A program made the position numbers and the translations under genes. Below the pieces are notes generated by a model. The model did no database searches and was not told the origin of the DNA. It saw only the letters and a program-made list of their open reading frames with translations. Of a DNA stretch of 64,000 bases, positions 13,831 to 30,383 are shown piece after piece. The stretch comes from Olsenella profusa DSM 13989 (GTDB taxonomy: Bacteria; Actinomycetota; Coriobacteriia; Coriobacteriales; Atopobiaceae): NCBI RefSeq assembly GCF_030811115.1, contig NZ_JAUSQK010000001.1, positions 992,001-1,056,000 on the forward strand. Direction: 5' to 3'. How positions within the stretch are numbered: the stretch's first letter is position 1; the number at the start of each line of letters is the position of its first letter.

Positions 13831-15046
13831 CATGGCCCCCAAGCTCGCGCATAACCCCCTCACTCCCTCCGCTCCCGGAAGCCGTCGTCGAGCAGCCCCA
13901 GCAGGCCGTCGCCCGGCCCGGCCTCGCGCAGCAGCTCCTCGACGCGCTCGCGCTGCCTGACCCTCGCCCCCGTGCGCGCCCTCGGGCTCGCGACGCGGGG
14001 CTGCGGGCCGAACGAGGCCTCGAGCTCGGCGCGGGGGACGTGCGGGGCGGCCGCGACGTCGGCGGCGAGCGCGGACGCCGGCGCGGGGCCCCTGTGGCAG
14101 TACCTCCAGCTGAACTCGTCGCACACGCCCTGCAGCCTCGCCCGCGACAGCCCGTGGAAGGTGCCGAGGGCGTACGCCTTGAAGTCCGATATCACGTGGT
14201 GCACGAGCGCGAGCGAGGAGGCCGGGTCCGACGCGTCGAACGGGCGCTGGTCGAGCCCCGGCCAGCCGCGCAGGCCGGCGGTGACGCCCTGCCACATGTC
14301 GGCGCGGACGTGCGAGAGCACCCCCACGTGCTCCTCGGCGAAGCGCGAGTACGCCCCGCCCGCCGCGTCGGGGACGACCCTGAGGGCGCACGTCCCGGGG
14401 CCGCCCCGGCCGCCGCGCGACACCGCGCAGATCATCGGCTGCCTGGTGGTCCCCCTGCCCACGGTCCCTGCGGCCGCGGCCCCCACGAAGAAGTCGTCCA
14501 CCTCGGCCTCACCCGAGACCCGGCCGAAGGCGCCCCAATCCGGCGGACATCGCGCCGCGCAGCCTCAGGACCACGTATCGCGCGGTGGTCTCGCTCGTGC
14601 CCAGGGCGCGGGCCAGCTCGGCGGCCGAGACGCCCCTCTTCGAGCCGGCGACGAGCCGGAACGCCAGGAACCACTTCGGCAGCGGCAGCCTCGAGCCCTG
14701 CATCGGGGTCCCGGAGGTCACCGAGAACTGGAGCCTGCAGCGGGTGCACTGCCGCTTCCTCGGCCTGCCCGCTACGGGGCTGCACCTGCGGTTGCCGCAC
14801 CTCGGGCAGACCCAGCCGCCCGGGAAGCGCAGCCGCATCAGCCCCTCCTCGCACGACGCCTCGTCCCCGTGCCTCGCGACCCAGGACAGGAGGTCCCCGC
14901 CGCCGCCGTCCGCCGCCGCCACCATCCGCGCGCTCATGCTCGTCATGCCGCCCAGCCCCTCTCGACGCCCTCGCCCTGCGGCACCGATTGTGCGACGGGG
15001 GCGCGACACAAATTAGCTGCCCTTATGCGCGAGCTTGGGAGCCATG
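13831..15046 (-). mobile_element. IS1595-family element 1
   Basis: A 1,216-bp element with inverted ends CATGGCCCCCAAGCTCGCGC (left) and, reversed, CATGGCTCCCAAGCTCGCGC (right). It is flanked by an 8-bp direct repeat TTTCATGA (13823-13830 and 15047-15054), the duplication length typical of IS1595. It carries one transposase gene on the minus strand with a frameshift. Confidence 0.85.
13860..14946 (-). pseudogene. IS1595-family transposase, frameshifted
   Basis: The N-terminal frame (start 14946, MTSMSARMV) holds a zinc ribbon with CPRCGNRRC and CTRCRLQF and an HTH (SAAELARALGTSETTARYV). It runs to a stop at 14509. The C-terminal frame (to 13860) starts with WGAFGRVSGEAEVDDFFVGA, the first catalytic Asp region of the ISXO2-like DDE domain, and includes HHVISDFKAYALGTFHGLS near the third catalytic residue. 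The two frames are out of register by one base near 14540, so the gene is broken unless frameshifting occurs. Confidence 0.75.
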
Positions 15047-15054
15047 TTTCATGA
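15047..15054 (+). repeat. TTTCATGA, middle of three identical target repeats
   Basis: The same octamer occurs at 13823-13830, here, and at 16151-16158, bounding two adjacent IS1595-type elements. The ancestral site would have read aatTTTCATGAttgac. The arrangement means that one element inserted into the duplication made by the other. Confidence 0.85.
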
Positions 15055-16150
15055 AATGACTGAGTACCTCCAGCATAACCGCAGGAGTTCCTGTCGCCTC
15101 CAAACCATACAATGAGGATGCAAGGCTGATGCATCCGAGAGGGCAAAGAAAGAGATGGCGAAGGGGCATGCAGGCGCTCTGAATAGGCGCGAATGCGAGA
15201 GCAGGGGGACATTGATGGGCCTTTTGAAGAGGTTCTCAAACGAGGAGTCGTGCGAGGGGAGGCTGCTCGAGGAGAAGTTTTCCGGCGGCTTTGCCTGCCC
15301 CGTATGCGCCAATACGTCCTGCTCGAAGGTCTGAGGCCGCGCGCACAAGTGGCAGTGCACGAAGTGCTCGCACCAGGTGAGCGTGAGCGCAGGGACTATT
15401 GATGGAGGGCACGCATATCGAGCTCAGGAAGTGGTTCGTGGGCGATATGGCTCATGTCCGCCCAGAAGGCAAGGATCAGCGCCTGCGCCCTGCAAAGGCA
15501 GATAGGCTGCAGCTTAAAGACGGCAGGGCGGGTCCTTGCAAGGATACGCTCGCCTGGGTCAGATCGCAGTGCGTTCAATGTCCTTGCAGCTGACACACAC
15601 GAGGTGGACGACTTCTATATCGGTGCCAAGGCGGCAGGCAAAAGCGGACGCGGCACAAAGCAGCAGCCGATGCTTACAGCGGCAGGCAGGGCGCCTGCCC
15701 CCTGCGCTGCGCAAAGGAGTGCTCGAAAGATTCCTGGCGCCAGGTGGGGCATGACCAGCTCTGCCATACATCGAAGATAAGGGCGGATGGCTGGAGCGGC
15801 AAAGCTTGCCGGCCTCTCCTCGTTGCGCGGGCTCGTCTAAAGGGAGTACGACAGAGCGGACGGGGATGCATCCCTTCCCATGGTCCACAGGGTGATATCC
15901 AACTTCAAGGCCTACGTGCAGGGCGCCTTCCCAAGGCCCACATGCACTCCTTGCGGACTCGTTCAGCTAAAGATACAGCCACAGGGATGTAAGGGATGGC
16001 TGCATGGAGCTGCTGCACGAGATGTGCCTTATCCATGTCTCGCTCTCCGGCATCGCAGCCACCACGACGGTCCAGCCGAAGATGCCTTCGATCTTGCCTA
16101 AGCCGCTTACAGTTCAGAGAGCCTAACTATGCTGGAGGTACTCAGCCATT
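15055..16150 (+). mobile_element. IS1595-family element 2, degraded
   Basis: A 1,096-bp element with inverted ends AATGACTGAGTACCTCCAGC (left) and, reversed, AATGGCTGAGTACCTCCAGC (right). It is flanked by TTTCATGA on both sides. Its transposase is on the plus strand and is broken. Its right boundary lies 33 bases from the GH32 stop codon. Confidence 0.8.
15218..16100 (+). pseudogene. IS1595-family transposase remnant
   Basis: Pieces of a zinc-ribbon (FACPVCANTSC, WQCTKCSHQVSVSAG), the first DDE block (THEVDDFYIGAKAAGKSGRG) and a late block (VHRVISNFKAYVQGAF) are spread over three frames with several stops. These correspond in order to the blocks of the element-1 transposase, but identity is low, so this is an older, independent IS1595 lineage. 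Confidence 0.7.
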
Positions 16151-16182
16151 TTTCATGATTGACTTTTAATAGTTAGTCTTTC

Positions 16183-17670
16183 TTATTCACAACCAGTAAT
16201 CCTAATATTGGTAAAGTCCACTAGCCCATCTCTCACGAACAGTCCCATCTGGTAATCAACCTGTCTATAAATACGATAGGTAAAAGCAATCTTTTCTCCT
16301 ACAAAAATCTCCACTAAGTCATGATCAACAAGAGCGCTAATTTCGAAAGTGCTTCCATCCACAACTGTGAAATGCTTCTCTGCAACCCGATTTCCATCTG
16401 GTCCTGGCACTGCTGGACTCCCTACGTCTGTACAGGATTTCCTCCAGAACGGATCAACATCCATGGGCAGACTTAGAAGGGAAGCGCGTTGCATACCAAT
16501 CTCGAAGCGCAGTTCGAGGCACTGATTTGCATCCGCATCCGTCTTGAACAAGATTCCAAAGTTATCGCGGCAATAGGAGATGCGGACGCGACATCTGAAG
16601 AGAAAGGTCTTCTCATGTATCTTGAGCAGGCTATAGCCGAACGAACCCGGAGAGTTGATAGATATGGATTTGTTACCAGCACTTGTAACCTGTCCAAGCC
16701 TTGGAACGAGTGACCATGGCAGGACTCTTGCACTGAGGCCTGACTCAATCTCATAGGGCATCTTTACGTCAAGCTCCCTATAAGAATTAGGAATAACCTC
16801 ATGGGGTACACAGAAGTCACCGCCCCAGTACCACTCCCCGTCATCACGGCCATCGGCCCTATCATGCACCCAGCCGAAATATATGCAACGCCCCTCACTA
16901 TTGATGCACGACTTGGCTGCATAGAATCTCCGTCCCCCGATCCCATCAATACGTGGGGTCCGCCAAGGACCAAAAGGCGAATCTGCCATACGGTAGATCG
17001 TCTCTACATGCTCTGAGAAACGCGAATACGAGAGGTACCAGGTATCTTTCAGCTTGTACATCTCAGAACACTCTGGACAGTTGGTATGATAGGGAGTGTA
17101 GATTGGCCCGTAATGCACCCAATGAGACAAATCGTCGGAACGAAACAACACGATACATCCCGACTTTGATGATGGACCCTTACGCAAGCGAGCGGATACA
17201 AGCAGCCAGTAGCATCCATCGTCCTTATTGAAAAAAATGTATGGATCTCTCCAGTCAAGAGGTCTATACAGATCGGTTAAAGGAACAAGGATGGGATTAT
17301 CCGGATCTTTCATCCAGGATATGCCATCCTCACTGGTTGCATGGCATATCGTCTGTTGTGTTTTGGTGTGATAGTTGTAGCCAGTGTAAAAAATGTGGTA
17401 GAGACCTTTACCAAAGATGACCGATCCCGTCCATATGCCATCGGCGTCGGGCTCACTCCCCATACCTGGGCACAACGCTGTCGGCAATTCCTCCCAATTC
17501 CACAGGTCTCGAGAAACGGTGTGACTCCATGTTGTCCGAAGGCGGTCGGGATATACAGTCGTACCAGCTGGGGGTGTCAGAGAGAATATATGGTACATAC
17601 CGTCATGGAAGAACGGAATGGCATCCCCGGTCGCATCTGCCCCCACTGGCTTACGGAATATCCCGTTCAT
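16183..17670 (-). CDS. GH32-like glycoside hydrolase
   Basis: A 495-residue enzyme. The start at 17670 overlaps the permease stop (ATGA) and has GGGGAGGAG upstream. The five-bladed propeller motifs fit GH32: YRPLDWRDPYIF carries the RDP motif (Asp stabilising the transition state) and NCPECSEMYKL carries the EC acid/base motif. The usual N-terminal nucleophile block WMNDPNG is replaced by GDAIPFFHDGMYHIF, where an Asp lies near the expected place. A C-terminal beta-sandwich follows from about residue 330. There is no signal peptide, so it probably acts on imported sugar, hydrolysing a fructoside or similar. Last gene of the RbsBAC-like operon; GC content is clearly lower than in flanking genes. 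Confidence 0.7.
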   Translation of the reverse strand: MNGIFRKPVGADATGDAIPFFHDGMYHIFSLTPPAGTTVYPDRLRTTWSHTVSRDLWNWEELPTALCPGMGSEPDADGIWTGSVIFGKGLYHIFYTGYNYHTKTQQTICHATSEDGISWMKDPDNPILVPLTDLYRPLDWRDPYIFFNKDDGCYWLLVSARLRKGPSSKSGCIVLFRSDDLSHWVHYGPIYTPYHTNCPECSEMYKLKDTWYLSYSRFSEHVETIYRMADSPFGPWRTPRIDGIGGRRFYAAKSCINSEGRCIYFGWVHDRADGRDDGEWYWGGDFCVPHEVIPNSYRELDVKMPYEIESGLSARVLPWSLVPRLGQVTSAGNKSISINSPGSFGYSLLKIHEKTFLFRCRVRISYCRDNFGILFKTDADANQCLELRFEIGMQRASLLSLPMDVDPFWRKSCTDVGSPAVPGPDGNRVAEKHFTVVDGSTFEISALVDHDLVEIFVGEKIAFTYRIYRQVDYQMGLFVRDGLVDFTNIRITGCE

Positions 17671-18713
17671 TGCTCCTCCCCAGAAACGGTGTCTTTGGAC
17701 TTGCTGGCAGGAGGCACAGTCTTGAAGAGCCAAGTGCTGAAGGAGCTCTTCTGAGAATCAATGATGACGGCAGCAAGAATGATAATTCCCTTCACAGCAA
17801 GCTGCCAGAATGAGCTTACACCCATGAGATTCAGCCCATTCGAAATCATGCCAATCACAACAGCACCAATGAACGTACCGCTGATGCTCCCTACGCCGCC
17901 AGACATCGAGATGCCACCAAGGACACATGCTGCGATAGCGTCCATCTCATATCCCGATCCAGAGGCCGGTTGCCCTGAGAACATTCTCGAGGCAAGAACG
18001 ATACCTGCAAAAGCAGCAAGCAGACCTGAGATAGTATAAACCAAGATCTCCGTCTTCTTTATGGGAATACCTGACAGACGCGCACATTCGCGATTGCCAC
18101 CGACTGCATAAACATAGGTACCAAACTTTGTCTTTGAGAGAAGCACAGAGAAGATGGTGGTCAGTACCACCATATAGACGACTGGCATGGGAATCCAACC
18201 AAAGAGATATCCCGTCCCGATGAGCGAGAAGGCATCATCAGTTACGCGCGTCGACTGGCCACCCGTATAGATATACGCAACGCCACGTGCAATGTTCATG
18301 GTAGCAAGCGTAACGATGAAGGCCGGTACCTTGAATTTAGAGACCACAGCGCCATTGAAGAATCCAACCAGGGCCCCCAGACAGAGACCGACCAATATCG
18401 CCCCCCACATAGGAAACTGGCTATAGGTCATGAGCCCAACGGTTATGGTTCCACTCATGGCGACGATAGATCCAACAGAAAGATCGATCCCACCAAGAAT
18501 GATAACGAATGTCATGCCAAGGGCAAGAAACACGTTATTTGAAATTTCCCTGAGAACTGAAATTACATTGCTGGTAGTTAAGAATGATGGGCTGAGCAAT
18601 GACATGAATATGAACAGTATTATCATTACGATAATAATACCTATGTTTTTCTTTATGATACTTCCGAATTTGCCGAGAACCGAAGTTGTTCTATTTCCCG
18701 CCTTCTTACTCAC
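17667..18713 (-). CDS. RbsC-like sugar ABC transporter permease
   Basis: A 348-residue polytopic membrane protein of the BPD_transp_2 family, with about eight to ten hydrophobic helices. The GGIDLSVGSIVAMSGTI block is the conserved segment of ribose-type permeases. GTG start overlapping the ATPase stop; its own stop overlaps the GH32 start. A homodimer would form the pore for the substrate delivered by the protein at 20304. Confidence 0.9.
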   Translation of the reverse strand: MSKKAGNRTTSVLGKFGSIIKKNIGIIIVMIILFIFMSLLSPSFLTTSNVISVLREISNNVFLALGMTFVIILGGIDLSVGSIVAMSGTITVGLMTYSQFPMWGAILVGLCLGALVGFFNGAVVSKFKVPAFIVTLATMNIARGVAYIYTGGQSTRVTDDAFSLIGTGYLFGWIPMPVVYMVVLTTIFSVLLSKTKFGTYVYAVGGNRECARLSGIPIKKTEILVYTISGLLAAFAGIVLASRMFSGQPASGSGYEMDAIAACVLGGISMSGGVGSISGTFIGAVVIGMISNGLNLMGVSSFWQLAVKGIIILAAVIIDSQKSSFSTWLFKTVPPASKSKDTVSGEEQ

Positions 18714-20203
18714 TGATCCTCCTCTGTCGCCAAATGCATAATCTTCTCTTGGCTGAACTCCCTACGTTGAAGCGTACCGGTGATACGCCCGCCATGAACG
18801 ACGCAGATCCTGTCACACATGTTGATGAGCTCGGGAAGCTCAGAGGAGACAAGGATAATGGCCGTGCCCCCTTTTGAGAGCTCGTTGATGATCGAGTAGA
18901 TCTCGGTCTTCGCTCCAATGTCAATACCTCGAGTTGGCTCATCTAGGATGAGAACCTTCGGATTTGTCGCAAGCCATTTCGCTAGGACTACTTTCTGCTG
19001 ATTCCCGCCAGACAAGCTCGAGACCTCTGTTGATAACGAAGGTGTTTTGACATGTAGATCGTCGATGTATTTACTGACCAGCGTATCTGCCTTACCCCAG
19101 TTGACTATGCTGCCATAACTGATTTTCCCCAAGTTGGAAAGAGCCACGTTGAACCTCACTGATGCCAAGAGGTCCAAACCTTGCTTCTTTCGGCTCTCAG
19201 GAACGAGGGCAAGGCCGTTAATGATTGCGTCAGCGCAGTTCTTGAAGTAAACCGGATCCCCATCAATCAGCATCTCTCCAGAGTCATAGGTGCTACTCCC
19301 GAAGATGGCCTGCATGAGTTCGCTCCGGCCGGCTCCGATAAGACCAGCGAATCCAAGAATCTCACCAGCATGTACTTGGAAGCTCACATCGCCGAACACG
19401 CCTTTTTTCTCCAAATGTCTGGCCTCGAACACGACATGTTCAGTGGGCTCATAGGTTCTCTGATAGAAATTAGAGAGGCTGCGACCCACCATCATCTGCA
19501 CAAGCTCGCCTTGATTGGTCTGACTGGTCCGGACAGTCCCTATGTACTCCCCATCGCGAATAACCGTAATACAATCCGTTATCTCAAGCAGTTCACTCAT
19601 CCTGTGGGAGATGTATACGATGCTCACACCACGCTTTTTGAGATTTCTGATAATGCTAAACAGTGATTCCACTTCTTCATCTGAGAGCGAAGAGGTTGGC
19701 TCGTCCATCACGAGAATACGAGCATCAAATGAGACTGCCTTGGCAATCTCAACCATCTGCTGCTGAGCGATACTCAAATCCTTCACGAGAGTGGTGACGG
19801 ATATGTCAACACCAAGCACGCTTAGCTTTTGTTTGGCCTGCGCTTCCATTTCCTGCTCGTCGACAATGCCACCTTTCTTGACTATCTCCCTACCAAGAAA
19901 GATGTTTTGCGCTATGTTCAGATAGGGAACGAGCACTATCTCTTGATGGATGATTTCGATACCGTTTCTTCGGGCGGTTGGCACACTATCAATGTCGACC
20001 TGGTTACCATCAATCTCAATGGAACCAGCGTTAGGTGGATATACGCCACCGAGAACGTTGATAAGTGTCGACTTACCTGCTCCGTTTTCACCAAGGAGTG
20101 CGTGGACCTCGCCTCTCTCAAGTTTGAAGTCGACCCCTTTGAGAACCCTCGTATTCCCAAAGGATTTGGTAATCCCGTGCATCTGTAGAATAGGTTTGCC
20201 CAA
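18710..20203 (-). CDS. RbsA-like sugar ABC transporter ATPase (two domains)
   Basis: A 497-residue tandem ATPase of the ribose/galactose (CUT2) type. Domain 1 has Walker A GENGAGKST (about residue 38) and Walker B RILVMDEPTSSL; its signature LSIAQQQMVEIAKA is the degenerate form usual for RbsA. Domain 2 has LSGGNQQKVVLAKWLA and VLILDEPTRGIDIG, while its Walker A region (LIGAGRSE) is degenerate, also typical. It energises the permease at 17667. Confidence 0.92.
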   Translation of the reverse strand: MGKPILQMHGITKSFGNTRVLKGVDFKLERGEVHALLGENGAGKSTLINVLGGVYPPNAGSIEIDGNQVDIDSVPTARRNGIEIIHQEIVLVPYLNIAQNIFLGREIVKKGGIVDEQEMEAQAKQKLSVLGVDISVTTLVKDLSIAQQQMVEIAKAVSFDARILVMDEPTSSLSDEEVESLFSIIRNLKKRGVSIVYISHRMSELLEITDCITVIRDGEYIGTVRTSQTNQGELVQMMVGRSLSNFYQRTYEPTEHVVFEARHLEKKGVFGDVSFQVHAGEILGFAGLIGAGRSELMQAIFGSSTYDSGEMLIDGDPVYFKNCADAIINGLALVPESRKKQGLDLLASVRFNVALSNLGKISYGSIVNWGKADTLVSKYIDDLHVKTPSLSTEVSSLSGGNQQKVVLAKWLATNPKVLILDEPTRGIDIGAKTEIYSIINELSKGGTAIILVSSELPELINMCDRICVVHGGRITGTLQRREFSQEKIMHLATEEDQ

Positions 20204-20235
20204 GAAGCTACCTCCCCTTTTGGATAATCCGACAC

Positions 20236-20263
20236 GCGCAGCTTGCTTTCGTACAGGCTGCGC
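20236..20263 (-). promoter_or_regulatory. Hairpin between binding-protein and ATPase genes
   Basis: GCGCAGC (20236-20242) pairs with GCTGCGC (20257-20263) around a 14-nt loop, in the 100-bp gap between the binding-protein stop and the ATPase start. Such hairpins often stabilise the upstream mRNA so that the binding protein is made in excess. No U-tract follows, so it is not a strong terminator. Confidence 0.4.
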
Positions 20264-20303
20264 TTAGTCAGAGTCACAAATTACAGTACAGACAGGCTAT
20301 CGG

Positions 20304-21314
20304 CTACTGCCATTCATCTTCTGTCTGCTTCGCCTCATCGATGGAGATGAGATGAGAGTCGAGCCATATCTCCTTGTCTACTGACTGGCCCTGCATGAGG
20401 TCAACTGCGCACTCGAACGCTTTTTCGGCTATACCGAGAGGTACTTGGCACGCAACGGCTTTAAAGTCGCCATCGATAAGCGCTTTCTTGCCATCAGGAG
20501 AAGCATCAATCGAATACACGTTAATCAACCCCTGCTTGTTTGCGGCCTTAATTGCGGCGACAGCACCAAGCGAGGAGGGATCATTTATACAGAAAAACGC
20601 TTGAAGGTTCGGATTGGCTTGAATGATGTCCTGTGCCACGTTAAGTGAGCTATCCAAGGTAGCCTTACCATCCTGTTGCGCAACTATATTGAATTTACTT
20701 GCGCTGTCGCCAAGCCCCTCATTGAAGCCCTTGACTCGCTTCACACAACTCTCGTTCGAGGGAAAGTCAAGAATGGCAATGTCAGCACCATTCGGATAGT
20801 CTTTTACCATTTGCTGCCCGACAAGCTGTCCTGCTTGCTCCGCATTCGTCCCGATCAGTGTGTCAATTAGAGACCTATCATCCTCAGTCACTGCCGTATC
20901 GACATTTAGAATCTTCTTGCCCGCATCTTTCAACTCTTGAAGGCCCGAGCGGATTCCTGCGGAATCGACCGGTATGACGAATACTGCATCCAAATCTTGG
21001 TTTGCCGCGTCTGACAGTTGGCTCAGCTGAGTATTGAGATTGTAGTCTGGATTTAGGCAGACGTATGAATAGCCTGCGTTGTCGCATTGCTCTTGGAACT
21101 TGTCATTCATAGAGGACTGGAAAGTGTTATTGAGGGTGTTCGTAAGAAAAGCAAAGGAGTAGGGACCATTCTTTGACGAAGACGACGATGAATCCTGCGC
21201 AGTCGAATTCGGTGTTACACCACAACCAGTAACTGTCAGACATCCAAGAACCGCAGCCGATACTCCAACACCCAAAAACTCACGTCGGCTTAGCTTCAAA
21301 CCACCATTACCCAT
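20304..21314 (-). CDS. RbsB-like sugar-binding lipoprotein
   Basis: A 336-residue periplasmic-binding-protein-like (Peripla_BP_4) lipoprotein. The N-terminus has KLSRREFLGVGVSAAVLG with a twin-arginine-like pair and the lipobox VTGC; a Ser/Asp linker follows. Conserved family blocks include FVIPVDSAGI and the FFCINDPSSLGA region. It delivers substrate to the RbsA/RbsC-like pair encoded downstream. The substrate is not determined by sequence; the GH32 gene suggests a fructose-containing oligosaccharide. Confidence 0.9.
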   Translation of the reverse strand: MGNGGLKLSRREFLGVGVSAAVLGCLTVTGCGVTPNSTAQDSSSSSSKNGPYSFAFLTNTLNNTFQSSMNDKFQEQCDNAGYSYVCLNPDYNLNTQLSQLSDAANQDLDAVFVIPVDSAGIRSGLQELKDAGKKILNVDTAVTEDDRSLIDTLIGTNAEQAGQLVGQQMVKDYPNGADIAILDFPSNESCVKRVKGFNEGLGDSASKFNIVAQQDGKATLDSSLNVAQDIIQANPNLQAFFCINDPSSLGAVAAIKAANKQGLINVYSIDASPDGKKALIDGDFKAVACQVPLGIAEKAFECAVDLMQGQSVDKEIWLDSHLISIDEAKQTEDEWQ

Positions 21315-21539
21315 ACTAAGATTTCCCTCCGTCTTCTCCTATCAAGACCTTGATAGGATTTTCGTAACTTATTTTAAACAGAGGGAGTGCTACGTTTATC
21401 TTGTCATGTTATCGACATCGGTAAGTGGACTTTTCTACGAATTTTACGTAAATTTTTAAAGAACGCTGTATTGCTCTTAAAGTCAAATGGGCAGACTCTC
21501 CTCCACCAGGATTGGTTCATGCAAGCAGCCATATCAAAA
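21315..21539 (-). promoter_or_regulatory. Promoter region of the sugar operon
   Basis: A 225-bp AT-rich gap between the regulator stop and the binding-protein start, expected to hold the operon promoter. A partial palindrome ATGTTATCGACAT (near 21406-21418) is a possible LacI-family operator. The ribosome site AGACGGAGGGAAATC precedes the ATG. Nothing else was recognised. Confidence 0.35.
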
Positions 21540-23552
21540 TCAAAGTAACCCCCGTGGAAAAGGCTCATGCAAAATTTCCTTCCATGCATCAGCCAAGTTC
21601 TCGCGAGTAACTCCAAGTGGTGAAACACCTATATATTTATGGGAATCATTTCCCAGTAAGGCATGCGCAACCGCATATGCTGCAGCAACACCCTGCTCGA
21701 AAGGTCTTTGAGCAGATATCCCACAGACCAATTCTCCTTTTGCCATGAGCATACCTATTTCTTCATCAAGGTCACAGGTAAAGAGAACGATATCCGTCCG
21801 ATTTAAGTCGCTTAGAGCTCGTACTGCTTGTAGGGCAGGACCATCCCAGCAGACATAAAGCGCCCTAATACCCGGATGTTCCGTTAGCATTTTGCAGCAT
21901 ATCTCATACGCGTCTGCTATATTGATGAATGAATTTGTAGCTTCGATTTTGATATTGGGATAGTTGCGCTCAATTGTTTTTACTGTAACCATGTCTCGCA
22001 GGAAGGTACCGTAGAAAGTACTGCCATGTTTTATAATTCCTATCTGCACGTTTTCTTGTCCGGCAAAGTAGTCACCTATCATATGCGCGATAATTCTGCC
22101 ACTCTCACACTCATTGACAGAAACACAGGCCGAATAGTCTTTCCTTGAAAAACCGGAGGGGATGTTACTGAGAAAGACAAGTTTCGTTTGTTTCGAAAGA
22201 CTTTTAAACGCAGGCGCTGTAATTTTGTCATCGACCGGAATGGCTATAACAGCATCAGGTCTCTGCATTTTTATGCCCTCAATTTGAACCATCTGCAGTT
22301 GAGGGTCAAGCTGTGCCTCGCATGTCGATATCACTGAAATGCCAAGATTGTTAAGCGTTTCCGTTATGCCAAGCTGATGCAGTGAGTGCCACGCAGTGCC
22401 ACCATAATGAAATGCAAGAGCGACTGTATAGTGTCCTTCCTTGAGTTGATTCCGTTCATTTTCCGAGGGGACAATTTCATCCGGAGAGGTGGCGCACTCT
22501 CCAAACGGGCCTGCTCCGACTACCTGTGCTGAATTTCCAATATGCAGTTTCGTTGGAACTTTAATACTTCTATTAGAGTCTTCTAACATGCAACTAGATT
22601 TTTTTATACCAATGCAGGGCACTTTATTTACTATTCTCTCACTAACTATATCAGCCATTTGACTGGGATCTTGGCATACATAGGTAAGATTCTTATCAAA
22701 AGGATATGCTTCATCAAAACATCCATATCCAACGATGGATATGTCATCCGGGCACTTAAGACCATTCTTTTTGAGTGCCGCAATAAGATTGAGGGTTAGA
22801 AAATTACCACAAGATATTATTGCCGTTGGGGCAACATCATTAATAAAATTAGGAATCACTCTATTAAATATATCTGTATCGTTATGCATCATTGTAATTA
22901 TCATATGCTCATCAAAGGGAACTCCAACCTCAGAGAGAGCTGCTCGATAACCATTAATACGTTCGGTAACCGAAGTCTTATTTTTGTCACCAAATATGCC
23001 AGCTATATGTCGGTGCCCAATTGATATCAAATATCGCACTGCGTCACGAGTACCTTCAAAGTCTTCCATAACGACGCAATCCTTCTCGTGCGTGGCAATA
23101 ATTGCATCCATGAATTCCACTGCAAGTCCATTTGAATAAAGAGAGCTATATACGTCTACTCTCTCTTGAAGTGGAACAAGCGCGATGCCGGCGATACGAC
23201 AATCTCCTAAAATATGCCTTAGAATCATTCGCTCTTTTTCGGAATCATTTTCATTGCAATATATTGCTGGAAGTAGCCCTCTTTTCATAAAATTACTCGA
23301 TAGATGTTTTGTTAATATGTTATACATGGGGCTGTTGAATGTCGGTATAACAATGGCAATCACCTTATTGAAATTTATTTTCCCTTGTTTCATTCGAGAA
23401 TCGAGCTTATGTATATAGCCTGTTGATTTAATCGCATTCCAAACGCAATCCGTCAAGTCATCACTAACATGTCTTGTCCCGTTAATGACGTGAGAAACTG
23501 TAGCAATTGATGTACCAGCTTGGTTAGCCACATCTCGAATTGTTGCGCTCAT
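21540..23552 (-). CDS. LacI-family regulator fused to a second sugar-binding domain
   Basis: A 670-residue protein, about twice the family length. ATG at 23552 is preferred over the TTG before it. Residues 3-22 form the LacI HTH (IRDVANQAGTSIATVSHVIN). Residues ~55-330 are the usual ligand-binding core. After a ~40-residue linker, a second Peripla_BP_4-like domain fills residues ~375-670 (VAIPVDDKITAPAFKSL, ALYVCWDGPALQAVRAL) and resembles RbsB-type binding proteins. The gene lies upstream of, and in the same direction as, the transporter operon, so it probably regulates it and may read two ligands. An ISL3 insertion sits 50 bases upstream and has probably replaced its promoter. Confidence 0.85.
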   Translation of the reverse strand: MSATIRDVANQAGTSIATVSHVINGTRHVSDDLTDCVWNAIKSTGYIHKLDSRMKQGKINFNKVIAIVIPTFNSPMYNILTKHLSSNFMKRGLLPAIYCNENDSEKERMILRHILGDCRIAGIALVPLQERVDVYSSLYSNGLAVEFMDAIIATHEKDCVVMEDFEGTRDAVRYLISIGHRHIAGIFGDKNKTSVTERINGYRAALSEVGVPFDEHMIITMMHNDTDIFNRVIPNFINDVAPTAIISCGNFLTLNLIAALKKNGLKCPDDISIVGYGCFDEAYPFDKNLTYVCQDPSQMADIVSERIVNKVPCIGIKKSSCMLEDSNRSIKVPTKLHIGNSAQVVGAGPFGECATSPDEIVPSENERNQLKEGHYTVALAFHYGGTAWHSLHQLGITETLNNLGISVISTCEAQLDPQLQMVQIEGIKMQRPDAVIAIPVDDKITAPAFKSLSKQTKLVFLSNIPSGFSRKDYSACVSVNECESGRIIAHMIGDYFAGQENVQIGIIKHGSTFYGTFLRDMVTVKTIERNYPNIKIEATNSFINIADAYEICCKMLTEHPGIRALYVCWDGPALQAVRALSDLNRTDIVLFTCDLDEEIGMLMAKGELVCGISAQRPFEQGVAAAYAVAHALLGNDSHKYIGVSPLGVTRENLADAWKEILHEPFPRGLL

Positions 23553-23602
23553 CAACAGCCTCGTTCTCTAATTTGTATCCGTTTGAGATACCTCTATATT
23601 TT

Positions 23603-25004
23603 GGCTCTTCAAAACTTCTGGTGGGTAGCACACGGGCTCCCACCGCGCCTCCCTCCCGGCAGGCGGTATGATTCCTGCGACTGGTGGACGCGACGATCGG
23701 AGCCGTGCATGGACGCGCAGGCCGGCATGCTGGCGCAGCTCTTCGAGAGATCGATGGGGCTGGGGCCGGAGTGGAGGGCCTCGGAGGTCTGGTTCGAGGA
23801 GCGCGGCGGGGCCCCGGACGAGCTGCACGTCCGCGTCGAGCACGTCCGCGGCCAGGCCGTGGGGCGCCCCGAGTGCGGGCGGAGGTGCGGCACCTACGAC
23901 ACCCGGGAGCGCACCTGGCGCCACCTCGACATCTGGCAGTACGAGACGGTCGTGCACTGCGCCGTGCCCAGGGCGGACTGCCCGGAGCACGGCGTCCGCA
24001 CCGTGCGCATGCCCTGGGAGGTCCGGCCGAACTCGCACTTCACGGCCCTCTTCGAGGTGCAGGTGCTGGTCATGGCCCTGTCCGGGATGACCGTGGCGGC
24101 CATCGCGTCGCGGGTGCGGGAGGGCGACGCCCGCGTCTGGGCGCTCCTGCGCCGTGCCGTCGCCGAGGCGAGGGGGTCGGCCGACTACTCCGCCGTCGAG
24201 CGCGTCGGCATCGACGACACCGCGAGGGGGCGCGGCCAGAGCTACATAAGCACCATGGTGGACCTCGACGCCCGGCGGGTCGTCGCCGTCACCGAGGGCA
24301 GGGACAGGGGGTCGGTCGGCAGGCTCTGCGACCAGCTGGAGGAGCGCGGCGGCGACCGCTCCCGCGTGCTCGAGGTCACCAGGGACATGGCCGAGGCGTA
24401 CTCGCTCGGCGTCGCGTCCGAGATGCCCCAGGCGGCCCAGACCGTCGACCGCTCCCGCGTGATGCAGCTCTTCTCGAGGGCCACGGACCGGGTGAGGTGC
24501 CGCGAGAGGCGCGAGTCCGAGGAGAAGAGGGCCATGCTCGCCGGCACGAAGTACGTCTGGCTCAAGCGCGAGTCCAACCTCACGGGGAGGCAGCTCGCGA
24601 AGAGGGCCGGGCTCGACCCGGCGCGCCCGCGCCCGAGGACCGCGAGGGCATGCCAGATGGCCGAGGCGATGCGCGACGTCTACGGGCTCCCCGGCCGCGA
24701 GTCCGCGGCGCGGGCGCTCGACCGGCTCTGCTCCTGGATGATGCACTCGAACGTCCCGGAGATGAAGGTGGTCGCGGGGACGCTCCGCAAGGAGCGGGAG
24801 GGCATCCCCGACTGGTGGCGGAGGGGCTCGACGAACGCGATCCTGGAGGGGCTCAACTCAATCGTCCAGTCCATCAAGAGGGCCGCGAGGGGCTTCAGGA
24901 ACACCGGGTACTTCGAGACGATGATATTCCTCAGGCTCGGTCGCCTGGACTTCTCGGCCCAGCTGGCCGTCTCGACCGCTACCCACTAGAAACCGTAAAG
25001 AGCC
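23603..25004 (+). mobile_element. ISL3-family element, intact
   Basis: A 1,402-bp element with inverted ends GGCTCTT...GTGGGTAGC and an exact 8-bp direct repeat TATATTTT (23595-23602 and 25005-25012), the duplication size expected for ISL3. It inserted immediately beside the end of an older ISL3 element that begins at 25013. Confidence 0.9.
23709..24989 (+). CDS. ISL3-family transposase
   Basis: A 426-residue transposase. An N-terminal zinc-binding segment (GRPECGRRCGTYDTRERTWRH) is followed by an HTH (TVAAIASRVREGDARVWALL) and the DDE_Tnp_ISL3 core, with GIDDTARGRGQSYISTMVDL containing the first Asp, VTRDMAEAYSLGV the second, and NAILEGLNSIVQSIKR the Glu. The reading frame is complete and lies inside matched ends with a fresh target duplication, so it is probably active. 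Start at 23709 matches the family N-terminus (MDAQAGMLAQLF) and the remnant at 25121. Confidence 0.9.
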   Translation: MDAQAGMLAQLFERSMGLGPEWRASEVWFEERGGAPDELHVRVEHVRGQAVGRPECGRRCGTYDTRERTWRHLDIWQYETVVHCAVPRADCPEHGVRTVRMPWEVRPNSHFTALFEVQVLVMALSGMTVAAIASRVREGDARVWALLRRAVAEARGSADYSAVERVGIDDTARGRGQSYISTMVDLDARRVVAVTEGRDRGSVGRLCDQLEERGGDRSRVLEVTRDMAEAYSLGVASEMPQAAQTVDRSRVMQLFSRATDRVRCRERRESEEKRAMLAGTKYVWLKRESNLTGRQLAKRAGLDPARPRPRTARACQMAEAMRDVYGLPGRESAARALDRLCSWMMHSNVPEMKVVAGTLRKEREGIPDWWRRGSTNAILEGLNSIVQSIKRAARGFRNTGYFETMIFLRLGRLDFSAQLAVSTATH

Positions 25005-25120
25005 TATATTTTAGGGCTCTTCGTCACTTCTGGTGGGTAGCACTTCTGCATCCCCTTGAGGGCGTGGCCTTTGAATGGTAGGATTTTCCCCGACAGGAGG
25101 CTGCGTTCTGGAGGTGCGAT

Positions 25121-27008: not shown

Positions 27009-28665
27009 GGGCCGGTACCGCTTTTCCGTACCTTGCTGCTAGGCTGCGAGGCCCAAGCTCTGCCTGTATTGTAGGGGGCTCATCGAGCCCAGCGAGCGCT
27101 TGATCCTCGTCTTGTTGTAACGCTCTATATAGGCGTCTATCCTCTCCTTGAGCTCATCCAACGTGACGCCCGCCCAGTCCCTGCCATAGAGCATCTCGAC
27201 CTTCATGGTGCCGAAAAAGCCCTCCATGCGGGAGTTGTCAGGGCTGCACCCCTTGCGCGACATGGAGCGCATGATGCCGGCCTTCTCGCAGATGGAGATC
27301 CACTCGGGCCAGCGGTAGTGGCAGCCGCAGTCCGAATGGATCACGAGATGGCGGCGCTCCTCGTCTGTCGTAGTGGCCAAAGCCGCCTTGAGCATGGAGT
27401 TGGCCATCTCGGCGTTGGGCGAGGTCGAGGTCGTCCAGCTTACGATGGCGCCGTCGAAGCAGTCCAAAACCGGGCTCAGATAGAGCTTGCCGGCCGGTAT
27501 CGAGAGCTGCGTGACGTCGGTGAGCCATAGGAAGTTGGGAAGTCCGGCTTCGAAGTCCTGGCAGACCTTGTTGCCGGGGTGTTCCGAGACCTCGCCCTTG
27601 TAGGAGCTGTAGGCCTTCCCGGGCTTTGCCTTGCCGTGCGCCTCGAGCTTCTCCTCAGCCATTATTCGCCCTATCCTGCGCTCGCCGATGACATGTCCTC
27701 GTGCCTCGAGCTCGTCGTGGATGCGGCGCCTTCCGTAGGCGCCGTCGTTGGCGTTGAAGACGGCGCAGACCAGCTCCCGCGCCCCGGCGTCCCTGTCCCC
27801 GGCGGCGATGGCCGAGAGTTGGTACTGGTGGCTCGATCGGGCCATGTCGAGCGCCGAGAGAAGCTCGCACAGCCTCCATTTGGGGCGCAGCGACTCAATC
27901 AGCAGAGTCTTCTCCCTGTTCGTGAGCTCGTTTGCCGGGTCGGCGCCCGTCCCTTTTCCCAGGATCTCGAGGGCGCCCTCCAGGATGTCGCGCTTGAGCT
28001 CGAGTTGGCGCAGCTCTTTCTCGAGTTCGGCCTTCCTGGCCTCGAGGGCATCTATTTCTGTCTGCGTGACGGGAGCCGCTCTGGCGGCTCCGGCGTCGGA
28101 CGCGCCATTTGAGACGGCGTTGCTTGTGTCGGGCATCGGGGGCTCCTTCTCAGGCAATAGCTCTCGCTTCCACTTGTAGAGGGTACAACGCGTGGAGCCG
28201 ACCTCGTCGGCGATCTGTTGCGCGCTTCCGGCTCGTCTGACAAGCGCTGTCACGGCTTTCTGCTTCTCTTCGAGAGTGAACGTCCTGGGCTCGGCTGTCC
28301 GCCTCTCGCCAGGTGCCAGCTCGTCTATCCACTCTCTGAGCTTTTGCGTACTTCCGGGGTATCCCAGCTCGCGTCTCGTATAGGCGTTGCAGCGGCCGTG
28401 CTCCAGATAGTGGTTGACGGCGGCCCGCCTTTGCCCTTCTGAGTAGCGTTCTAGGTTGCGCCCCCTGAGCGCGCCTCCGTTGTCCTGCCATTCCCGATAC
28501 CATCCTACAAGCTGTGCCCGGCTTGGATATCCCAACTCGCGTATCGTAGCCGTGGCTTTAAAACCATACTTGATATAGAGCTCGACCGCTCTTGTCCTCT
28601 GCTCAAGGGAGTACACGCCATCCTCCAAACATCATCGTTTGGTACGGATTTCCGGTACCGGCCCC
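27009..28665 (-). mobile_element. 1,658-bp IS3-type element, copy 4
   Basis: Same ends as copies 1-3 except that one G is missing from the left GGGG run (1,657 bp). Each side is bounded by a 29-nt orphan terminus (26980-27008 and 28666-28694). No 3-bp target duplication is present (aaa versus gtt), which fits loss of the intervening host element by recombination between two copies. Confidence 0.88.
27039..28628 (-). CDS. IS3-family transposase (copy 4)
   Basis: A 529-residue transposase identical to the other three copies: HTH repeats at about 5-45, 62-100 and 116-157, a coiled coil at 188-225, catalytic D371, D433 and E469. The frame is intact. Confidence 0.9.
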   Translation of the reverse strand: MEDGVYSLEQRTRAVELYIKYGFKATATIRELGYPSRAQLVGWYREWQDNGGALRGRNLERYSEGQRRAAVNHYLEHGRCNAYTRRELGYPGSTQKLREWIDELAPGERRTAEPRTFTLEEKQKAVTALVRRAGSAQQIADEVGSTRCTLYKWKRELLPEKEPPMPDTSNAVSNGASDAGAARAAPVTQTEIDALEARKAELEKELRQLELKRDILEGALEILGKGTGADPANELTNREKTLLIESLRPKWRLCELLSALDMARSSHQYQLSAIAAGDRDAGARELVCAVFNANDGAYGRRRIHDELEARGHVIGERRIGRIMAEEKLEAHGKAKPGKAYSSYKGEVSEHPGNKVCQDFEAGLPNFLWLTDVTQLSIPAGKLYLSPVLDCFDGAIVSWTTSTSPNAEMANSMLKAALATTTDEERRHLVIHSDCGCHYRWPEWISICEKAGIMRSMSRKGCSPDNSRMEGFFGTMKVEMLYGRDWAGVTLDELKERIDAYIERYNKTRIKRSLGSMSPLQYRQSLGLAA

Positions 28666-29243: not shown

Positions 29244-30383
29244 CTAGGCCATGGAGCCTATCCCAGACTCCACCTTAAGCCCAATTACCCAAATCCAACA
29301 AGCAAGCTCGCGCACCACCGCCACTCTTGCGACGTTGGGATGTTTGCCTGAATCAACAAGCTCGTCAAAGCGGGACTTGAGACGTCTGTTGGCCTTACGG
29401 GCAAGTCGCCCAATCTCAGGCGACACCCCACACGTACGCACATGCCTCTTGGTATAGTCCTTCCTTCTGCAGATGGATGCAGGACCCTCAATAAGCAAGC
29501 GGCGCAGAAGGGTCGGCCCTTCCCTGGGGATGTGCCCGGGGCTGCATCTTGGGCCACCTGAGCGATCGGTTGCAGAACATCCTATCCACCGAGAGACCTT
29601 CCTGCCTGAGCTAAAGCGAGAAAGGCTCCCAAACTCGGCTGCCGCAGGAAGAGCAGTGGCACTGCCTATACCCAAGGGCAAAGAAATCGCATCAACATAA
29701 GGTGCCCAGCGCAAAGACTGACGGAGTCCCTCTACACTCTCTTTGAAGGCAGCACGGCTCTCTTCTAAGGCGCAGAGCCCTCCAGGCATGAGTTTCGGTG
29801 TGAGACTTGCGCCCTCACATCCCAGATCACAGCTTGCGACCCAGGCTCTGTAGGTCGCAGTATGAGTTGACTTCAATCTTCCTGAGGAGGTCCTCTCGTT
29901 CCAAACGCAGCCATGTCTAAGAAGAAAGGCTGCTATCCTGCGCCTCCGTGAGCTTACAAGAGTAGCCGGGGATGTGTACGCTCTCACGAGGTCACGTGCC
30001 CCTTCGGTCTCACGATCAGGAATCCAGACGTAGGAAATGTCACTTGCGGGACTGGGCATCTCTCTCAAGAGTATCGATGCGTCATTGCGATCGTTTTTGT
30101 GCCGGTTGTTCTTCGGGGACTTAGGAATGCTTGTTGCCGCAGCAATGTCACAGCTGAAGCCTGCAGCCTTCAGTGTGCGAGCAAGCTCATGGCCCGTACA
30201 GCCCGACTCGTACGCAAGGCGCACGGGCTGAGGTAGCTTCCCCAGCCACTCAAGAAGGTCCAAGACCATAGTAGAGCCACGAAGGCAGTGCTCCTTTACC
30301 TCTCCCGAAGTGACAACAGGCGCCTTGCACACGATACTCCTGGCGTGAACGTCCATTCCTACCTGCGTGGTATGCTCCCTCAT
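29244..30383 (-). CDS. IS110-family transposase
   Basis: A 379-residue DEDD-type recombinase. The N-terminal RuvC-like domain shows VGMDVHARSI (first Asp), LAYESGCTGHEL (Glu) and KNDRNDASILL (paired Asp). The C-terminal Transposase_20 region with its catalytic Ser would be about residues 230-340 (ISLPLGIGSATALPAAAEFG, FSSGRKVSRWIGCSA). The frame is complete. IS110 enzymes are guided to target and donor DNA by a bridge RNA from a non-coding end of the element; the candidate region here is upstream (30384-30539) or downstream (28953-29243). Confidence 0.85.
   Translation of the reverse strand: MREHTTQVGMDVHARSIVCKAPVVTSGEVKEHCLRGSTMVLDLLEWLGKLPQPVRLAYESGCTGHELARTLKAAGFSCDIAAATSIPKSPKNNRHKNDRNDASILLREMPSPASDISYVWIPDRETEGARDLVRAYTSPATLVSSRRRRIAAFLLRHGCVWNERTSSGRLKSTHTATYRAWVASCDLGCEGASLTPKLMPGGLCALEESRAAFKESVEGLRQSLRWAPYVDAISLPLGIGSATALPAAAEFGSLSRFSSGRKVSRWIGCSATDRSGGPRCSPGHIPREGPTLLRRLLIEGPASICRRKDYTKRHVRTCGVSPEIGRLARKANRRLKSRFDELVDSGKHPNVARVAVVRELACWIWVIGLKVESGIGSMA

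Follow-up and report, generated by a model that had tools for sequence, protein, structure and literature searches.

The window, as we call the whole 64,000-nucleotide stretch analysed here, comes from the genome of Olsenella profusa DSM 13989, which is assembled as one contig of 2,616,809 bases. On its reverse strand, at 21540–23552, it carries a regulator gene of 670 codons counted from the ATG at 23552; an alternative start, TTG 23555, gives 671 codons, and the frame 21540–23555 runs without an internal stop. On the same strand lie genes for the RbsB-type binding protein of an importer (20304–21314), an RbsA-type ATPase (18710–20203), an RbsC-type permease (17667–18713) and a GH32 glycoside hydrolase (16183–17733, with a start probably at 17670 by comparison with relatives), all assigned by Pfam. 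The GH32 protein has no strongly hydrophobic segment, and its best solved match is a beta-fructosidase. An ISL3-family insertion sequence on the forward strand (23603–25004), bounded by the 8-bp target duplication TATATTTT at 23595–23602 and 25005–25012, begins 50 bp upstream of the regulator's ATG. The apparent end of a second ISL3-like copy lies 2 bp past this duplication (region 23595–25041).

The regulator is a fusion. Its Pfam matches, numbered from TTG 23555 (all other residue numbers are counted from ATG 23552 unless stated), are LacI 5–48, Peripla_BP_3 173–309, Peripla_BP_1 153–336 and Peripla_BP_4 378–636. All four exceed their gathering scores, and the helix-turn-helix (PF00356) reaches 46.4 bits against a cut-off of 27. 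By Pfam, the helix-turn-helix occupies residues 4–47 (23412–23543, reverse strand). Pfam and fold comparison place a first, LacI-type core at residues ~60–340 (22533–23375) and a captured binding-protein domain at residues ~342–670 (21543–22529), both on the same strand. AlphaFold2, given an alignment of 68 sequences from the window and the related loci, predicted the whole fusion with a mean pLDDT of 91.4 and a pTM of 0.81, and the hinge at residues 50–60 was the sole segment with a pLDDT below 50. In structure comparisons of this model, residues 60–343 matched CcpA (2o20; Z 30.2, rmsd 2.3) and residues 374–663 matched a ribose-binding protein (2fn8; Z 33.2, rmsd 2.8 over 285 residues); RbsR, PurR and CcpA are the nearest solved structures to the first part. 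The fusion has the LacI-type core fold (PF13377/PF00532), and its 670 residues and third domain depart from the two-domain LacI build of a helix-turn-helix plus one effector domain.

An earlier note on this DNA had described a LacI-type regulator of about 670 residues, joined continuously and without a frameshift to a second, complete binding-protein fold. The intact frame and the Pfam matches bear out this description, and domain search and structure prediction of both halves, which the note had proposed, predict that the C-terminal half folds as a binding protein. The protein is a LacI DNA-binding part, a LacI core and a captured binding protein, and as such a variant within the known LacI kind. 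Among the listed titles and abstract openings of an open-access collection, we found no description of a LacI protein with its core and a second binding protein; padloc matched no family.

The fusion in other genomes

The fusion is not unique to this assembly, a point for which the earlier note had suggested a survey. We found 21 full-length relatives on 16 contigs of 14 genomes, which belong to Bacillota judging from their names or from the group that was searched. The corresponding 16 stretches (L168–L183; 14 genomes, 21 fusions) and the window make up the fusion set used below, with 17 loci and 22 fusions. Because other genomes encode full-length homologues with this architecture, the fusion is neither an assembly artefact nor a product of chance; these homologues and the intact frame likewise rule out a frameshift.

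The architecture is real, rare and patchy. A scan of genome_contigs with an alignment of the C-terminal half yielded 191 relatives, and 80 loci were kept. Six of these carry full-length LacI fusions, eight proteins from Gracilibacillus halotolerans, Faecalicatena contorta (two), Paenibacillus abyssi, Cohnella caldifontis (two), Paenibacillus athensensis and a Clostridiales Family XIII genome. Three surveys were centred on genomes chosen for having the fusion, with the best four or eight candidates per genome scored. Centre genomes included, the fusion was present in 6 of 299 genomes of the F. contorta family, 3 of 148 of the P. abyssi family and 2 of 245 of the class of the Clostridiales Family XIII genome. 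Around the host, a full-length fusion was found in 1 of 140 family genomes and 1 of 396 genomes of a phylum sample, the window itself both times (at most eight and at most three candidates scored per genome, respectively, with other long frames judged by matched range). A search of 396 class genomes with the C-terminal half gave 13 matches; the 12 besides the window were weak and lay in frames of 340–406 residues. Exact-peptide scans of genome_contigs and viral_contigs with the whole fusion found no relative, nor did an alignment scan of viral_contigs with the C-terminal half. One of 3513 matching plasmid records covers 80% of the query (among the 40 records listed), and there the halves are separate adjacent genes. 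Inspection of the long frames around L050, L051 and L055 showed that they do not encode fusions.

Conservation of the two cores

The earlier note had proposed two ligand sites in one repressor. We compared the first core with 24 ordinary LacIs from contigs of the genome_contigs scan (neighbouring LacIs) and 29 LacIs of the host family, at positions where PurR contacts its ligand. The fold is retained, and the structural residues H180 and G201 are kept in the 21 fusions besides the window's, but the canonical ligand residues are mostly altered. At the PurR D275 position, 24/24 neighbouring and 28/29 host-family LacIs have D, against 1/22 fusions; among the fusions only L178 keeps it, and the window has G. 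The D of the ND motif is found in 23/24 neighbouring and 29/29 host-family LacIs, compared with none of the 22 fusions. R196 is present in all 24 and all 29 ordinary LacIs and in 12 of the 22 fusions, and is the only one of these three features of the LacI ligand signature that the window keeps. At the positions of PurR R190 and T192, the alignment puts K and S in the window. The first core is also the least conserved part: mean pairwise identity among the fusions is 59% in the helix-turn-helix, 29% in the first core and 50% in the C-terminal domain.

The hinge has changed as well. In LacI proteins, a hinge of the form YxPN..A..L contacts the operator centre, and the fusions have mostly lost this motif. 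The hinge N is present in 24/24 neighbouring LacIs versus 2/22 fusions (K in the window), the A in 24/24 versus 0/9 and the L in 22/24 versus 1/9, in a segment that is hard to align in the fusions. In host-family LacIs the hinge N is present in 20/29, which makes it a looser marker than the ligand residues. Ligand signature, hinge and domain build all depart from the ordinary pattern, and the fusion should therefore be classed apart from ordinary LacI proteins.

The second domain derives from a transporter binding protein. Residues from ~342 to the end align with the mature part of importer binding proteins, including a conserved stretch that precedes the fold proper; such proteins are encoded on plasmids of Klebsiella, Arthrobacter, Deinococcus, Mesorhizobium and Metabacillus. 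The fusion point falls shortly past the end of their signal peptides. No signal peptide was found in the C-terminal domain, which is preceded by the LacI core, and the highest 19-residue hydropathy in the whole fusion is 1.5, at residue 241. The note's further proposal, a particular resemblance to the binding protein of the adjoining operon, did not hold. The two share 22% over 156 residues by BLASTP, compared with 36% over 324 residues for the C-terminal domain against a binding protein from a different type of importer, so the likeness goes only as far as their common Pfam family, Peripla_BP_4; on the same figures we reject the idea that the domain was copied from the binding protein of the adjoining operon.

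The sugar site of this domain is mostly kept. H382, R519, W569 and Q615 are present in 22/22 fusions and D594 in 21/22, and these five are kept in 33–35 of 35 other subfamily members (three of them kinase-fused). In the ribose-binding protein 2ioy, the counterparts of R519, W569-D570, D594 and Q615 are R, ND, D and Q; RbsB contacts its ligand at these positions. The domain thus has the binding-protein fold with an RbsB-type sugar site, except at position 462, where ribose-binding proteins have an acidic contact: it is D or E in 34 of the 35 other members and N, S, G or T in the fusions (N or S in 18/22). Three further residues, N480, E481 and D596, are specific to the fusions, occurring in 22/22 of them and in 0, 0 and 1 of the 35. 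Given position 462 and these fusion-specific residues, the ligand or its coupling has probably changed. Aligned with 8 other fusions, the window's C-terminal domain departs from three residues common to those eight: Q518 is L in the window, R482 is C and N484 is S.

On these patterns two working ligand sites are doubtful, and one relocated sensor fits better than two integrating sensors. Sensing most likely sits in the C-terminal domain. The first core may still bind something, since R196 is kept in 12/22 fusions and D275 in L178.

Origin and gene neighbourhood

On a quickly built tree of 80 domains, all 22 C-terminal domains of the fusions fall into one group (SH-aLRT 98), so a single capture is sufficient; this tree included 52 separate binding proteins, thinned by rank, and has a few very long rows. 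In the tree of the fusions, the window groups with F. contorta L168 and with L177 of genome G868 (support 97/98), on a branch of 1.3 versus 0.34 and 0.47 for these neighbours. L169, L173, L175 and L181 each have a tandem pair of fusion regulators, of distinct types that pair across genomes on the tree.

The same binding-protein subfamily also forms the C-terminus of hybrid histidine kinases, at L077 (3078–5993), L110 (3408–6011) and also L092, L093, L100 and L134, the last four recognised by the H-box motif alone. L077 and L110 carry HisKA, HATPase, receiver and Peripla_BP_4 domains, with a PAS domain in L077 and one below the cut-off in L110. The three that we checked (L077, L100 and L110) have no strongly hydrophobic segment. 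The kinase fusions represent two changes on the domain tree. Subfamily members in four alphaproteobacterial loci, L114, L122, L129 and L131 (reverse strand), start directly at the mature sequence, apparently without a signal peptide. A similar gene at L047 (2265–3134), with an uncertain start, adjoins a ROK-family gene.

The earlier note had placed the fusion beside an RbsABC-GH32 operon, and we recovered this neighbourhood in 5 of the 17 fusion loci, window included. The other four, L168, L176, L177 and L178, belong to F. contorta and its family; the regulator is divergent in L178. Identity between the window and these four loci is 58–68% for RbsB, 57–60% for RbsA, 65–72% for RbsC and 58–63% for GH32. 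Against these 57–72%, the fusion itself shares 42–43% with L168, L176 and L177 (computed for six listed loci, L178 not among them). L182 has the same importer with a ROK-family protein and without a recognisable GH32; in the GH32 place lies a 492-residue protein (14675–16150) with no Pfam or NCBIfam match at the thresholds used. In eight loci (L169, L170, L171, L174, L175, L179, L180 and L183), the fusion is accompanied by a separate binding protein of its own subfamily, RbsA and RbsC; L171, which was checked, also has Gfo/Idh/MocA and isomerase-type genes. In L173 the binding protein and RbsC are present, and the gene model calls no RbsA. In L172 the binding protein is there, with RbsA and RbsC absent from the stretch seen; L181 has RbsA and RbsC with no same-subfamily binding protein called. 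The arrangement fits a capture inside the operon of a same-subfamily importer and a later recruitment to GH32 operons.

In the window, the region 16000–23600 stands out as an island, with a G+C content of 41–50% up to ~23000 in a window that is mostly 58–76%. At E 1e-80, a GH32 like that of the window was found in none of the 139 other host-family genomes, same-species G039 included. We infer that the operon probably arrived by transfer from a Lachnospiraceae-like donor. An rve-type transposase (27039–28628) and an IS110-family transposase (29244–30383, just below the NCBIfam cut-off) lie near the island.

Candidate binding sites of the fusion

A palindromic 10-mer, TTTACGTAAA, occurs exactly in 14 of the 17 fusion loci, at 32 sites; any other palindromic 10-mer is found in at most 5 of them. 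With the window, L179 and L180 left out, 13 of 14 loci hold 31 exact sites where 0.25 are expected. In a comparison set of 74 loci without a LacI fusion (L065 and L067–L139, six of which carry kinase fusions), it is exact in three, with 0.77 sites expected. The window has one match, the predicted distal operator TTTTACGTAAAT at 21442–21453 (0.03 expected with at most one mismatch). The operator with its flanks, WTTTACGTAAAW, occurs once in the 2,616,809-base host genome, between the regulator and the operon. A weaker second predicted operator, TTTTCGTAAC at 21359–21368, has two mismatches, lies 84 bp from the first, and is the second-best match in the window, on the strand scanned, of a profile built without the window. 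At the sequence level, the predicted palindrome, with its central CG and its place near the regulated gene, agrees with a LacI-type operator. Between these sites and the start codon of the importer operon is a perfect 10+10 inverted repeat, TCCTATCAAGGTCTTGATAGGA (21337–21358), which reads as a terminator-like hairpin on the forward strand; as an operator it was rejected, having no resemblance among the best five palindromes per related region.

The arrangement recurs in the relatives. L168 has two intergenic operator sites with one mismatch, 83 bp apart. Judged by eye, L168, L176 and L177 each have a TTGAC-like −35 and then a −10-like hexamer that is overlapped or immediately followed by the proximal site; the distal copy lies 82–83 bp upstream of the proximal. 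The fusions of L179 and L180 have the recognition sequence VSTSTVS in the helix-turn-helix and the site TTTGCGCAAA instead of TTTACGTAAA, compared with (V/T)S(I/V)ATVS in the other fusions seen, so operator and helix-turn-helix change together. It is strongly indicated, from sequence comparison, that the fusion family recognises ATTTACGTAAAT, in copies that flank the promoter of the regulated operon.

Operator copies lie ~62, 83 or 93 bp apart, in helical phase. An unpruned set of 21 spacings, in which sites inside genes were removed for L168–L178 only, gave R 0.71 at 10.5 bp (Rayleigh p ~2.5e-5, six periods tried). A hand-pruned set of 17 gave a vector length of 0.79 at 10.6 bp, which none of 20,000 jittered sets reached; with distinct spacing values only, 140 of 20,000 were equally phased. 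The pruned set leaves out L181 (a near-copy of L173), the spacings of 102 and 258 in L182 and of 19 in L183, and includes the window's 84 bp with its two-mismatch second site. The phasing rests on 17–21 spacings from related loci, and two sites of L179 (2873 and 3151) lie inside a doubtful reverse-strand ORF. With values near 62, 83, 93, 135, 168 and 241 bp, the spacings suggest that separate dimers are brought together by looping.

The window copy differs from this pattern at its own start. In ten of the 16 other fusion loci (L168, L170, L172–L177, L181 and L182), the ~90 bp before a fusion gene include a site that is exact or has a single mismatch, starts being approximate; of the six without, L179 and L180 use the other motif. 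The 50 bp before the window's fusion ATG contain no operator (best match, five mismatches), and before the importer operon of the window no sigma-70-like promoter is recognisable. With its fast divergence, a degenerate proximal operator, none before its own start and an insertion sequence upstream, regulation by the window copy may be weakened, altered or failing.

Discussion

We consider it rather probable that the fusion is a looping LacI-type repressor of the neighbouring operon, whose sensing has moved to a captured transporter protein in the C-terminal domain. As read from the sequence, the chain runs from a helix-turn-helix through a LacI core into an entire mature binding protein, and the genes of the family sit beside sugar importers. 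The captured protein would have lost its signal peptide and would work in the cytosol. The old core, with most of its ligand signature gone, may now serve mainly as a scaffold for dimerisation. An imported sugar or its breakdown product would close the C-terminal domain and alter DNA binding, most simply by releasing repression. In the GH32-type loci, the ligand is perhaps a fructoside or fructose, a first guess prompted by the GH32 gene and its beta-fructosidase match. Sites that lie 6 to 23 turns apart and in helical phase suggest that two dimers loop the promoter DNA, possibly held together via the added domains. A broader version, whose chances we put slightly below even, is that a LacI repressor swallowed an importer binding protein, handed over sensing, retained its former sensor as scaffold alone and gained long-range phased looping, within a lineage that is a repeatedly reused cytosolic sensor module, including in kinases and in Alphaproteobacteria.

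Other explanations must be weighed. In the model of the earlier note, each core binds a ligand of its own, and the repressor combines information from two sugars, or from one sugar and a metabolic signal. This model draws on the confident prediction of both folds, on the R196 of 12 fusions and on the K and S of the window at the R190 and T192 positions. We regard it as unlikely in view of the near-complete loss of D275 and of the ND-motif D, both almost invariant in ordinary LacIs, from the core that is the least conserved part of the fusions. It is still harder to favour a C-terminal domain that acts as a tetramerisation or looping module, or as an anchor touching the importer, with sensing by the first core or absent altogether. 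The phased operator pairs do suggest a higher-order assembly, and the invariant N480, E481 and D596, nearly absent from other members, also speak for this reading; a purely structural role, however, leaves the retention of H382, R519, W569, Q615 and D594 unexplained, and we think such a role distinctly improbable.

A different kind of doubt concerns the window alone: its gene may be degenerating as a passenger on an island gained by horizontal transfer and may do little to regulate the operon, in a family that works elsewhere. The long branch, the degenerate proximal operator, the missing site and the ISL3 element in front of the gene, and the lack of a recognisable promoter before the operon all point that way. 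The 670-codon frame is nevertheless unbroken, the main residues of the sugar site persist and the distal operator matches exactly, and we hold decay to be improbable. The looping repressor with a relocated sensor is the reading that we carry forward.

LacI cores share an old ancestry with the binding proteins of transporters. The fusion family renews this kinship: a LacI repressor took in such a binding protein once more, and the conservation pattern suggests that the captured domain took over sensing. The family offers a natural test of moving allostery between domains and of looping over 6–23 helical turns. Annotators gain a recognisable class: LacI helix-turn-helix, LacI core and Peripla_BP_4, with a predicted operator ATTTACGTAAAT and predictable target operons.

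Several known systems share parts of this design. In XylR (AraC family), a LacI-type sensor core is fused to a DNA-binding domain, and XylR and AraR each have a single sensor core and a different helix-turn-helix and are not known to have a second binding protein. In AraR (GntR family), according to PMC4052901, a binding-protein fold is fused to a DNA-binding domain; the fusion shares this combination with XylR and AraR, and differs by its helix-turn-helix and its second binding protein. With LacI/GalR repressors (RbsR 9ny7, PurR 1jft, CcpA), it has in common the PF00356 helix-turn-helix, the LacI-type core fold, the adjoining sugar operon and an even palindromic site with a central CG, a motif type described in PMC4052901. 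That source gives the LacI family a two-domain build, a helix-turn-helix plus one effector domain, and operator spacings that peak at 13, 22 and 32 bp. Unlike these repressors, the fusion has a second complete binding protein at its C-terminus, has mostly lost the hinge and the core ligand signature, and has sites spaced 62–241 bp apart in the pruned set. With RbsB-type (PF13407) proteins of Gfo/Idh/MocA-isomerase importers, it shares the fold, the N-terminal mature stretch and most sugar-site residues; unlike them, its domain is fused behind a repressor, has no signal peptide and has conserved residues of its own. The use of an RbsB-type domain as a regulator's sensor has a counterpart in the hybrid two-component sensor BT1754 (2x7x), according to PMC3404733. 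The BT1754 sensor is periplasmic and binds fructose, whereas the domain of the fusion is probably cytosolic and belongs to a one-component repressor.
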